Below, piece after piece: positions 6,048 through 8,321 of a DNA stretch of 64,000 nucleotides. The translations under genes and the position numbers were made by a program. Origin of the DNA: Xanthomonas sp. AM6 (GTDB taxonomy: Bacteria; Pseudomonadota; Gammaproteobacteria; Xanthomonadales; Xanthomonadaceae). Positions within the stretch are counted from its first letter, which is position 1, and each line of letters starts with the position of its first letter. The DNA lies in NCBI RefSeq assembly GCF_025665335.1, contig NZ_CP106869.1:3684501-3748500 (forward strand), read 5' to 3'. Under the pieces are notes generated by a model, which was not told the DNA's origin, did not search any database, and saw only the letters and a list, made by a program, of their open reading frames with translations.

Positions 6048-7307
6048 TCAGCCGGCTGAATGCAGCCAGTGCAAGGCGTCGGCCGCGGTGTGGAACGAGC
6101 CGAAGACCAGCACCCGGTCGCCCGGCCGCGCCTGCGCCAGGGCCTGCTGCAGCGCCTGCGCCACGCTGTCGGCGACCATGCCGACGGCCGCGTCGGTGCC
6201 GGCCAGGCGCGCCTGCAGCTGCGCGCCGCTCTGCCCGCGCGGGCCGGGCAGCCCGGCCAGATGCCAGGCGGCGACCTGCCCGGCCAGCGCCTGCACCACG
6301 CCGGCCGCGTCCTTGTCGGCCAGCGCGGCGAACACCGCGCGGGTGCTGCCGGCGCACGGCGTCGCCTGCAGCGCCGCGGCCAGCTCGCGCGCGGCCTGCG
6401 GGTTGTGGCCGACGTCGACCAGCAATTCCACCCCGTCGCGCGCGAACGGCTGCAGGCGCCCGCGCAGCCGCGCCGCGGCGATGCCCTCGGCGTAGGCGGT
6501 GCGCGGCAAGGCCTTGCGCAGCGCGCGCAGCGCGGCGATGGCGGTGGCGGCATTGGCGCGCTGCACCGGCGCGCGCAGCTGCGGCCACGGCAGCTCCAGT
6601 TCGGTGCCGACGTCGCGCCAGCGCCACTGCTCGGCGTCGATCGGCTCGTGGAAGAAATCGCTGCCGGCGCGGATCGCGTTGGCGCCGATCGCATAGGCGC
6701 GGCGCAGCACGCTCGACGGCGGATCGATCTCCCCCAGCACCAGCGGCTTCCACGGCCGCGCGATGCCGGCCTTCTCCGCGCCGATCGCCTCGCGGTCGGT
6801 GCCCAGCCAGTCGGTGTGGTCGATGTCGACGGTGGTGATCACCGCCACGTCGGCGTCGATCAGGTTCACCGCGTCCAGGCGCCCGCCCAGCCCCACTTCC
6901 AGCACCGCCAGGTCCAGCCCGGCCTGCTCGAACAGCCACAGCGCCGCCAGCGTGCCGTACTCGAAATAGGTCAGCGGCGTATCGCCGCGCGCGGCGTCCA
7001 CCGCTTCGAAGCCCGCCACCAGTTGCGCATCGCTGGCCTCTTCGCCGCCGATGCGCACGCGCTCGTTGTAGCGCAGCAGGTGCGGCGAGGTGTAGCTGCC
7101 CACCGTCCAGCCGCCGGCACGCGCGATCGCCTCGACGAAGGCCACGGTCGAGCCCTTGCCGTTGGTGCCGCCGACGGTGATGACTTTCTTCGCCGGCCGG
7201 GTCAGGCGCATGCGCTCGGCCACCGCGCGCACGCGCTCCAGGCCCATCGCGATGTCCTGCGGGTGTTGCTGCTCGATGTAGGCGAGCCATTCGTGGAGGG
7301 TTTTCAT
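6048..7307 (-). CDS. folC: bifunctional dihydrofolate/folylpolyglutamate synthase
   Basis: FolC ligates glutamate to dihydropteroate and adds further glutamates to folates in the cytoplasm. The 419-residue protein has the Mur-ligase-like P-loop GTNGKGST at residues 47-54, then TSPHLLRYNERVRIGGE and the Mg-binding VGLGGRLDAVN. A DVGHNPQAAREL motif lies in the C-terminal domain. The start MKTLHEWLAYIEQQ at 7307 matches the family N-terminus; the in-frame extension to 7652 runs through a structured repeat element and is not coding. It heads the folC-dedD-cvpA-purF run. Unlike many gammaproteobacteria, accD is not directly upstream. Confidence 0.96.
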   Translation of the reverse strand: MKTLHEWLAYIEQQHPQDIAMGLERVRAVAERMRLTRPAKKVITVGGTNGKGSTVAFVEAIARAGGWTVGSYTSPHLLRYNERVRIGGEEASDAQLVAGFEAVDAARGDTPLTYFEYGTLAALWLFEQAGLDLAVLEVGLGGRLDAVNLIDADVAVITTVDIDHTDWLGTDREAIGAEKAGIARPWKPLVLGEIDPPSSVLRRAYAIGANAIRAGSDFFHEPIDAEQWRWRDVGTELELPWPQLRAPVQRANAATAIAALRALRKALPRTAYAEGIAAARLRGRLQPFARDGVELLVDVGHNPQAARELAAALQATPCAGSTRAVFAALADKDAAGVVQALAGQVAAWHLAGLPGPRGQSGAQLQARLAGTDAAVGMVADSVAQALQQALAQARPGDRVLVFGSFHTAADALHWLHSAG

Positions 7308-7328: not shown

Positions 7329-7620
7329 ATGAGGTGTGTTCCGATCACACGCCTCGAAGAAGCAAAGCTTTCGCGCTGACGCGCGAGTCACTTTTCTTTG
7401 CTTGTGCAAAGAAAAGTAACCAAAAGAAAGCACACCCGGGCGCCGCGCCCTCCGCGCTTCGCGCTCCGGGTTCGCACTTGGCCTGGGCATTTTTCGAAGG
7501 CACATCCTTGTGCCATCGAAAAACGGCGCGCATCGTGCGCGCCGCCCCTTCGGGGTTTTCGCCCAGACCAAGTGCCGCGGCTCACGGGACCCGAGAAGCA
7601 AAAGCAAAGAAGCAAAGCAA
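7329..7620 (-). repeat. structured RNA-like repeat element upstream of folC
   Basis: A dense set of nested inverted repeats fills the gap between the phosphatase gene and folC. Stems: 7331-7338 with 7346-7355; 7372-7376 with 7381-7385; a perfect 12-bp stem 7390-7401 with 7406-7417 (ACTTTTCTTTGC, loop TTGT); 7435-7439 with 7466-7470; and an outer 15-bp stem 7474-7488 with 7561-7575. The outer stem encloses three hairpins: 7490-7504 with 7509-7523, 7525-7532 with 7536-7543, and 7545-7548 with 7552-7555. The single imperfect pair of the outer stem is C-A on the plus strand but G-U on the minus strand, the strand of folC. From memory, very similar sequence is dispersed in xanthomonad genomes; no database check was possible. 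Confidence 0.7.
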
Positions 7621-7676
7621 CACCATGCACGAGGCTGGACTCGGAACTGCAATCCAGATCGCGGATTTCGTCGTAC

Positions 7677-8321
7677 CTACAGCGCCCGGTGCTTGGCCTC
7701 GCCGAAGAACGGCGTGTGGTGCGCGCAGTCGTTCAGGCGCACCACTTCCAGGTGTTCCACGTCCGGGCCTTCGAGCAGGTTCAGCGTGGTCGGCGCCTGG
7801 CGGAAGCTCCACAGCTTGGCGATCGGCAGGCCCAGCACCCGGCACAGGATCACCCGGTTGACCGCGTCGTGCGCCACCACCAGCAAGGTGTCGTCCTCGC
7901 CCAGGCCCTCGGCGGCGCGGGTCAGGCCGCGCCAGGAACGGTCCAGCACCTGGCGCAGCGATTCGCCGCCCGGCATCAGCACCGTGTCCGGCTCCTCGCG
8001 CCAGGCGCGCAGCCGCGCCGGATCCTTGTCGTTGATCTCGCTGGCGAGCAGGCCTTCCCATTCGCCGTGGGCGATTTCCTGCAGGTCCGGATCGGTCAGC
8101 AGCATCGCTTCGCGTTGCGCGCCCAGCGCGTAGCGGGCCGTGCTCTGCGCGCGCGACAGCGGCGAGGCCACCGCGCGGGTCAGCGGTACCTCGCGCAAGC
8201 GTGCGCCCAGCGCCTGCGCCTGCGCTTCGCCGACTGGCGACAACGCGATGTCGATCTGGCCCTGGTAGCGGCCTTCGGCGTTCCACGGGGTTTCGCCGTG
8301 GCGAGCGAGCAGGATGCGCAT
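7677..8321 (-). CDS. histidine phosphatase family protein (phosphoglycerate mutase-like)
   Basis: A 214-residue cytoplasmic enzyme of the histidine phosphatase superfamily. The RHG motif is at residues 7-9 (LLARHGETPWN), with His8 as the phospho-acceptor. SPLSRAQSTA follows near 54, HGEWEG near 85 and the second catalytic His at 151 (VVAHDAVN). It resembles GpmB/CobC-type phosphatases rather than glycolytic dPGM, so substrate assignment is open. Start MRILLARHG at 8321 places the RHG motif normally. It lies upstream of the structured element and folC on the same strand. Confidence 0.88.
   Translation of the reverse strand: MRILLARHGETPWNAEGRYQGQIDIALSPVGEAQAQALGARLREVPLTRAVASPLSRAQSTARYALGAQREAMLLTDPDLQEIAHGEWEGLLASEINDKDPARLRAWREEPDTVLMPGGESLRQVLDRSWRGLTRAAEGLGEDDTLLVVAHDAVNRVILCRVLGLPIAKLWSFRQAPTTLNLLEGPDVEHLEVVRLNDCAHHTPFFGEAKHRAL

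Follow-up and report, generated by a model that had tools for sequence, protein, structure and literature searches.

The window analysed here is a stretch of 64,000 nucleotides from Xanthomonas sp. AM6. Its interval 7329-7620 lies between folC (ATG at 7307) and an upstream gene whose frame ends near 7677, both on the minus strand. The upstream neighbour is probably histidine-phosphatase-like by our reading of its open reading frame, and folC was likewise named from open reading frames. Direct reading of the interval showed the inverted repeats that the original prediction had described. The packed multi-stem structure was confirmed by the folding energy of 7329-7640, which was beyond all dinucleotide shuffles on both strands (z -7.42 on the minus and -7.75 on the plus strand; 0 of 100 shuffles each). 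The predicted 15-bp outer stem, P4, was found by direct reading at 7474-7488 paired with 7561-7575. Its single imperfect pair, 7482 C with 7567 A, is C-A in the plus strand and therefore G-U in the minus strand, and a second pair of this kind joins 7389 C with 7418 A. The 12-bp stem ACTTTTCTTTGC was free of mismatches, as had been claimed (7390-7401 with 7406-7417).

The boundaries 7329 and 7620 held only in part. The structured repeat does lie inside them, but the segment common to other copies is narrower, from about 7369 to about 7597, and a hairpin at about 7331-7355 that adjoins folC is outside the shared repeat. This separate hairpin (GAGGTGTGTTCCGATCACACGCCTC) has the repeat on one side and folC on the other. 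As judged by eye, its arms co-vary among several genomes with the repeat in the same direction, and a similar stretch then precedes the folC ATG. The window copy has AGCAAA-type tracts at both ends, read at 7357-7368 on the folC side and at 7595-7625 on the far side. AGCAAA/AGCAAC/AGCCGT-type hexamer tracts were also seen on both sides of the inspected copies of the genus, with a constant strand sense relative to the repeat (for example L005 1800-1890; L011 1470-1500 and 1790-1845).

In this genome the repeat sits between folC and its upstream neighbour in folC's own direction, as a folC leader or riboswitch-like cis element would. We compared this intergenic site in 20 genomes of the genus. 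The repeat was in folC's direction in nine of them (G000, G002, G006, G007, G008, G010, G014, G018 and, partially, G019), reversed in eight (G003, G004, G005, G009, G011, G012, G015, G016) and undetected in three (G001, G013, G017). In G001 and G013 the same pair of genes is separated by only about 130-150 bases, and G017 has a different sequence upstream. The earlier link between RNA function and the direction of folC was thus not borne out. A folC leader was rejected, since eight sites are reversed and three show no repeat; with 13 other places in the same genome as well, it is very hard to credit. The flanks of the forward and reversed forms differ, and the two orientations may have arisen by inversion, replacement or separate insertion. 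A single site that may carry the repeat in either orientation, or lack it, fits the word 'mobile'.

The window element is one copy of a large dispersed family and not a folC-specific element. In the window genome, blast gave 17 matches with the interval at 14 places (two matches are the palindrome matching itself, and one copy was split), and a covariance model of the core gave 15. The palindrome CTTTTCTTTGC-N(3-6)-GCAAAGAAAAG occurred at 12 places, and a reversed-pattern control at none. Copies were present in all 20 genomes of the genus and in 80 of 149 genomes of the family. The suspicion of a dispersed xanthomonad family was therefore right. The core extends well beyond xanthomonads. The core model, R1, was built on 67 modules, and at a threshold of E 1e-4 or better it matched 53 of 229 genomes of the class. 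These represent 50 of 196 genera and include two genomes of the window's family. In a further family, f6, which we infer to be Burkholderiaceae-like, 61 of 150 genomes matched. An exact pattern scan of 398 genomes of the phylum matched only four, the window genome among them, so this breadth depends on tolerating covarying changes. A named scan covered at least 120 stretches; among the matches listed were Xanthomonas, Stenotrophomonas, Lysobacter, Luteimonas, Pseudoxanthomonas, Dyella and Dokdonella, as well as Solimonas, Pseudomonas, Methylobacter, Rhodoferax, Mannheimia and Desulfobulbus or Desulfobacterales assemblies.

Three other explanations were set aside. A phage collection contained no match to the repeat, which speaks against a phage origin. 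Among 72,556 plasmid records there were 2 short matches, both on records larger than 1 Mb, and a plasmid-borne element was not supported. The open frames that recur over the repeat are its own translation, so that a protein-coding explanation was also set aside.

Covariation was counted in two hand-picked alignments. A2 contains 64 of 106 full copies, chosen to cut near-duplicates and to keep copies that aligned over their full length. A1 is an automatic alignment of 67 of 98 modules, again chosen to cut near-duplicates. When copies were delimited, blast pieces shorter than 60 nt were dropped, and 3 copies had no detectable hairpin. Left out of the module set were copies with names starting L109_368, L013, L131, L045, L040, L043 and L014, which have an inserted hairpin or a decayed core, together with identical modules. 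In A2, 96.7% of the cells of an 83-pair consensus fold were paired. Double-change cells numbered 576, against 193 in shuffles (0 of 500 reached the observed number) and at most 95 in slid controls, in line with the covariation expected of homologues. Because of the relatedness among copies, these numbers should not be read as probabilities, yet the slid controls preserve relatedness and fall far short of the observed double changes. The measure 'further standard pair types' was not above shuffles (311 of 500 in A2 and 392 of 500 in A1 were at least as high). Taken together, the comparison indicates that the structure of the repeat is real and is kept by compensatory change.

In the sense of the minus strand, the repeat begins near 7597 and ends near 7369; both ends are approximate and come from the 64-copy alignment and the blast ranges of copies. 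The consensus fold and its pair counts place a 5' block at 7576-7588, which pairs with 7435-7447 as the outer helix P0 (its two parts have 90.1% and 99.5% paired cells; both-side changes in 3 of 9 pairs). P4 follows, with its 5' arm at 7561-7575 and its 3' arm at 7474-7488. It is the most variable helix, and covariation supports both arms (changes on both sides in 13 of 16 pairs, 92.5% of cells paired). P4 encloses three hairpins across the copies, two of which are usually CANGGAUG-capped in the window's family. P7 (CCCC-GAA-GGGG, 7545-7556) was placed by folding and pair counts; its 3 counted pairs are invariant in the 64-copy alignment and give no covariation support. P6 (7524-7544) has both-side changes in 4 of 9 pairs. 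Its apex is CACGATG in the window copy, with CGA where most aligned copies have GGA. P5 (7490-7523) has both-side changes in 10 of 14 pairs and, in the apex tally, the apex ACAAGGATGT, which we take to be RsmA/CsrA-site-like. Hairpin P3 (7448-7470) lies outside P4 and has both-side changes in 3 of 7 pairs.

The core lies 3' of this domain. Its order in minus sense is S1a-L1-S2a-S1b-S2b: TGTGC, TTTCTTTT + G, GTTACTTTTCTTTG, GCACA and CAAAGAAAAGTGAC. The 5' strand of S1, TGTGC (7431-7435), pairs with GCACA (7403-7407), which lies inside the loop of the S2 hairpin and shares its G with the pyrimidine arm of S2. This arm (7407-7420) had 98.4% of its cells paired and both-side changes in 8 of 13 pairs; the purine arm, also supported by covariation, is at 7387-7400. 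The 12-bp hairpin of the original prediction is, by this comparison, the core of an H-type pseudoknot whose loop pairs with upstream bases. In A1, 94.9% of the S1 and S2 cells were paired, and 81 cells had changed on both sides, where shuffles gave 17.0 (0 of 500) and slides at most 27. For S1 alone, 86.0% of cells were paired and 4 of 5 pairs had changed on both sides. We also scored 73 further modules, 71 of them outside the window's family and two inside, one of these being the window copy. S1 of at least 4 bp was present in 66 of the 73, with 25 distinct S1 sequences, and exchange of partners reached the observed sum in 0 of 2,000 trials. The 3' hairpin H1 (7369-7386), placed by the fold, differs in length among copies. 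As a side observation, a second pseudoknot candidate was noticed 3' of S2, where CUCGC is able to pair with GCGAG in the loop of the next hairpin. Outside xanthomonads (L134-L160, L307-L335) the 3' hairpin often resembles a second pseudoknot by eye.

The short strand L1 (7422-7429), the proposed third strand of a triple helix, tracks the purine arm of S2 in parallel. When one changes the other follows: AAAGAAAA stands with UUUCUUUU, AAAAGAAA with UUUUCUUU, AAGAGAAA with UUCUCUUU, AAAGAGAA with UUUCUCUU, GAAAGAAA with CUUUCUUU and AAGAAGAA with UUCUUCUU. In one fixed register, all scored positions matched in 85 of 98 modules of the window's family, 28 of 36 class-level modules and 28 of 37 f6 modules. 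Over 39 distinct combinations, the parallel score was 230 of 296, whereas permutations had a mean of 199.7 and a maximum of 224 (0 of 10,000). An antiparallel pairing of L1 with the purine arm had been weakly possible in a smaller, earlier test (177 of 10,000, against 0 of 10,000 for parallel). It was at chance in the larger one, where 7,003 of 10,000 permutations reached the score, and it was rejected. Concerted three-way changes were found at 4 of 8 columns of A1. The triple fits 50 to 67 of the 67 rows per column, and gap placement in this automatic alignment explains part of the misfit. The simplest reading is that L1 and S2 would form U.A-U and C+.G-C triples in the major groove of S2.

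The third strand bears on the idea of a selfish or passive repeat whose copies stay perfect through hairpin correction and through gene conversion among themselves, without any function as RNA. The hypervariable yet complementary P4 could come from template switching, and modules are common to the copies, both as expected from such a process. Correction of palindromes, however, predicts neither a parallel third-strand match nor a pseudoknot stem, and it is the hairpin loops that are conserved while the stems vary. We therefore regard a purely passive repeat as improbable.

The strand of the fold was then judged by its wobble pairs and loops. The fold optimised in minus sense has 213 G-U and 31 A-C cells; that optimised in plus sense has 41 G-U and 68 A-C. 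In the 79 pairs common to both folds, 67 cells are G-U and 31 are A-C in minus sense. The wobble argument for the minus strand, first made on the window copy, thus holds in the 64-copy alignment. The apices agree: read in minus sense, 188 of 240 5'-domain hairpins (106 copies) have GGA and 3 have TCC. In 23 class-level copies, 21 of 36 apices had GGA and none TCC, while the background from 18 loci had GGA in 3 of 37 and TCC in 7 of 37; this tally covers the 23 of 28 class-level loci with a located core, one of which, L160, is from f6. Single-stranded DNA would give the identical wobble bias, so RNA is favoured but not proven. Scanning for promoters gave no site, but since only 0.1 was expected this is hardly informative. 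Terminator-like sites numbered 4, two per strand, against 0.7 expected, and simple termination may be a role of the repeat.

The apex consensus of the 5'-domain hairpins on the RNA-sense strand is CANGGAUG, which resembles the CsrA site. Sub-threshold Rfam matches lie on the same strand: RsmW in the window, TwoAYGGAY in L123 and PrrB_RsmZ in L098, all of one clan (E 0.13-0.38). In one of the Rfam searches, however, 4 of the 6 matches were to unrelated families, two of them with lower E-values, and in the other 3 of 4 were unrelated. CsrA was found in 45 of 53 repeat-bearing genomes of the class and in 16 of 20 searched genomes without a repeat match, so that its presence alone does not separate the two groups. 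Of the eight repeat-bearing class genomes in which CsrA was not found, six are less than 90% complete and the other two are in f6. In f6, CsrA was found in 0 of 61 repeat-bearing genomes, and the pseudoknot core is therefore independent of CsrA. GGA-capped hairpins were present in 6 of 29 f6 copies, the other 23 having none, against 11 of 19 other class copies (Fisher p 0.013). Counted per hairpin, GGA was in 7 of 56 against 19 of 47 (p 0.0014). Scored for this contrast were 19 of the 27 loci at class level and 29 of the 30 in f6; the remainder were too short or not located. It is suggestive only, because f6 is one clade and the difference may be a single evolutionary event.

These counts were used to weigh whether the family is mainly an RsmA/CsrA decoy, an RNA that soaks up RsmA and in which the pseudoknot only stabilises. 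The CANGGAUG apex bias, the matches to the CsrA clan and the rarity of GGA caps in f6 are in its favour. It fits less well that GGA-capped hairpins are missing from 8 of the 19 class-level copies scored, all eight of them in CsrA-bearing genomes, or that one copy with GGA, L157, comes from a genome (87% complete) in which no CsrA was detected. In addition, unrelated Rfam families match as well as the clan, the f6 contrast may be one event, and the part kept in f6 is the pseudoknot. A family that is mainly a decoy is thus distinctly improbable. In the published parts of the RsmU work that we drew on, this Xanthomonas sRNA shows that an RsmA-binding RNA of the group can derive from an mRNA 3' region, and altered GGA motifs did not abolish its binding to RsmA (PMC7694677). 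Insofar as RsmU is a guide, GGA counts alone prove nothing. Some copies (L125, L156, L311, L314 and others) have a 5'-domain hairpin with GUCUGAGCG...AGCGAGUU, with or without GGA hairpins, and the 5' domain thus looks modular.

Many copies stand in inverted pairs. At one operon site, the same inverted arrangement was found in 13 genomes of the genus, and the operon gap could be delimited in 13 of the 20. The flanking genes are, by our reading, probably subunits of methylcrotonyl-CoA carboxylase. The pair shows that copies can persist, and its conservation fits slow turnover rather than active movement. In the genus loci, 18 of 18 scored pairs converge in RNA sense; because several represent one site seen in more than one species, the number of independent events is below 18. 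In 14 of these 18, one arm best matches query Q4 and the other Q3 or Q5, which means that the two arms differ in subtype. Other genera of the family gave 9 converging and 9 distinct diverging pairs (L062 and L099 are the same place and were counted once), and three pairs have a weak second arm (L109, L112, L113). In other families, 18 of 19 pairs with both arms within the fetched stretch diverge, with the pseudoknots at the outer ends.

Such an arrangement raises the possibility that the fold acts as single-stranded DNA, recognised on one strand during replication by a transposase-like enzyme that moves the repeat. One-strand recognition of this kind is known for REP sequences and IS200/IS605 ends. 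A hairpin code on one DNA strand would produce an identical wobble bias, single-stranded DNA could also adopt the triplex, and the copies are multi-copy, intergenic, often inverted-paired and polymorphic at folC. The similarity of inverted arms fades about 20-60 nt beyond S2 in most of the 19 other-family pairs, which can also be read in this way; however, it extends at least 100 nt in L329 and L330, and in L135 and L154 no ungapped similarity is seen past S2, so the arms lack one sharply defined common end. The CANGGAUG loops on one strand resemble the site of an RNA-binding protein, which weighs against this reading. The neighbouring proteins were compared all against all, with the repeat's own translations excluded, and none recurred in more than 6 of 118 loci. 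Those 6 loci look like one conserved flagellar gene place. The first recurrent proteins had been translations of the repeat itself, and a linked transposase was not supported. On this balance, we consider recognition as single-stranded DNA unlikely, and we favour a structured RNA.

No known family accounted for the repeat. Rfam 15 gave 0 matches at gathering score on the window and 20 copy-bearing loci, and a known Rfam family was rejected. No description of the repeat was found in the open-access literature (subscription papers and preprints were outside this scope), and a text search with words of the core sequence returned only apparently unrelated papers. Dispersed repeats of bacteria are, as a rule, regarded as DNA palindromes. 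REP/BIME, REPIN and MITE elements are short, non-coding and intergenic, often in inverted pairs and without a gene of their own, and the window repeat is like them in all these points. It differs in its much larger multi-domain fold with a pseudoknot and in that no recurrent neighbouring gene was found. With regard to the RAYT association of REP/BIME, the neighbours compared at 118 loci included no protein that recurred in more than 6. With regard to the terminal inverted repeats of MITEs, most of the 19 pairs have arms that share sequence for about 20-60 nt past S2, with a longer stretch in 2 and no ungapped one in 2, and single copies are partnerless. The ends, where a target-site duplication of the MITE kind would lie, are blurred by the AGCAAA tracts. 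The CsrA/RsmA-binding RNAs of Rfam clan CL00106 (RsmW, PrrB_RsmZ, TwoAYGGAY) have GGA hairpin apices on one strand as the repeat does. Unlike them, it scores below gathering, has a pseudoknot core and keeps this core in CsrA-less genomes.

In telomerase RNA, the SAM-II riboswitch and viral or transposon ENE elements, a U-rich strand occupies the major groove of a stem rich in A-U pairs. Triple-helix pseudoknot RNAs are single-copy RNAs or eukaryotic and viral stability elements, and the fold is known mainly from single-copy RNAs. The U-rich strand of the window repeat would likewise lie along an A-U rich stem. The nearest published idea, in the literature as we saw it, is the intrastrand triplex DNA repeat (PMC4666352). 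The PIT elements, BoxC and TM_ECO described there are dispersed and intergenic, and two pyrimidine tracts with a purine tract, or the complement, can form a three-stranded hairpin. Their consensus is CCCTCNCCC N3-6 GGGNGAGGG N3 GGGNGAGGG; they were studied as G/C-rich DNA, and in the parts of that paper used here no strand-orientation bias is reported (PMC4666352). Like TM_ECO and BoxC, the window repeat has three tracts that appear able to form a hairpin with a Hoogsteen third strand. Unlike their published consensus (PMC4666352), its tracts are CTTTTCTTTG/CAAAGAAAAG with TTTCTTTT. As far as those parts of the paper go, it further differs from PIT, BoxC and TM_ECO in an A/U-rich tract, in a covarying S1 that makes a pseudoknot, in a strand favoured by wobbles and loops, and in that the triplex motif is one end of a larger fold. 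The stem 'xanthomon' is absent from the main text, and the parts seen do not contain this family (PMC4666352). The MRSC-65-2 motif is another very numerous covarying repeat, called a likely selfish element; as described in the sections we consulted (PMC11109978), it is a single long stem with UYCCGG repeats, an architecture different from that of the window repeat.

The sequence comparisons indicate that what is kept is a 5' hairpin domain followed by a 3' H-type pseudoknot with a parallel pyrimidine strand. We put the chances at about even that the repeat is non-autonomous, dispersed and intergenic and that it functions through a structured RNA of the minus strand, transcribed by read-through, acting as a barrier at the RNA end and binding RsmA where that protein is present. 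The repeat would have no promoter of its own and would be read through from neighbouring genes. The pseudoknot and the 3' hairpin would be a compact barrier by which the RNA end is protected or defined. In hosts that have RsmA/CsrA, the GGA hairpins would bind this protein, and each copy would then be a small RsmA site on its host transcript. Frequent inverted pairing would let the unit work in either direction of transcription, and the repeat would have spread by an activity supplied in trans. The RsmA part is weakened by the CsrA-clan matches, which are below gathering scores and equalled or bettered by unrelated families, by the independence of the pseudoknot from CsrA (0 of 61 in f6) and by the CGA in P6 of the window copy.

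A bolder and more tentative proposal, which we think possible rather than probable, is an undescribed class of structured RNA. It would combine an H-type pseudoknot with a U.A-U/C+.G-C triple helix, lie dispersed and often inverted-paired in a substantial fraction of gamma- and beta-proteobacteria, serve as a portable transcript-end or stability module of RNA in either direction, and have gained RsmA-binding hairpins where RsmA/CsrA is present. If true, a mobile repeat would be tied to a global regulator. The comparison argues for a widespread repeat kept as a strand-specific triple-helix fold. It offers many natural variants for testing the rules of triple helices, and effects of such repeats on transcripts become directly testable. 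With their contrast in CsrA, the families provide a natural test of whether a repeat can turn into a protein sponge in the course of evolution.

Other repeats were seen close to some copies. G/C-rich BoxC/PIT-like CCCTC...GGGAGAGGG repeats lie near L127, L154 and L160. In the window genome, inverted GTAGGAGCGGCTTCAGCCGCGAC sequences, presumably REPIN-like, stand beside or between the repeat arms (L004 about 1403-1470, L005 about 1395-1465, L014 from about 1582).
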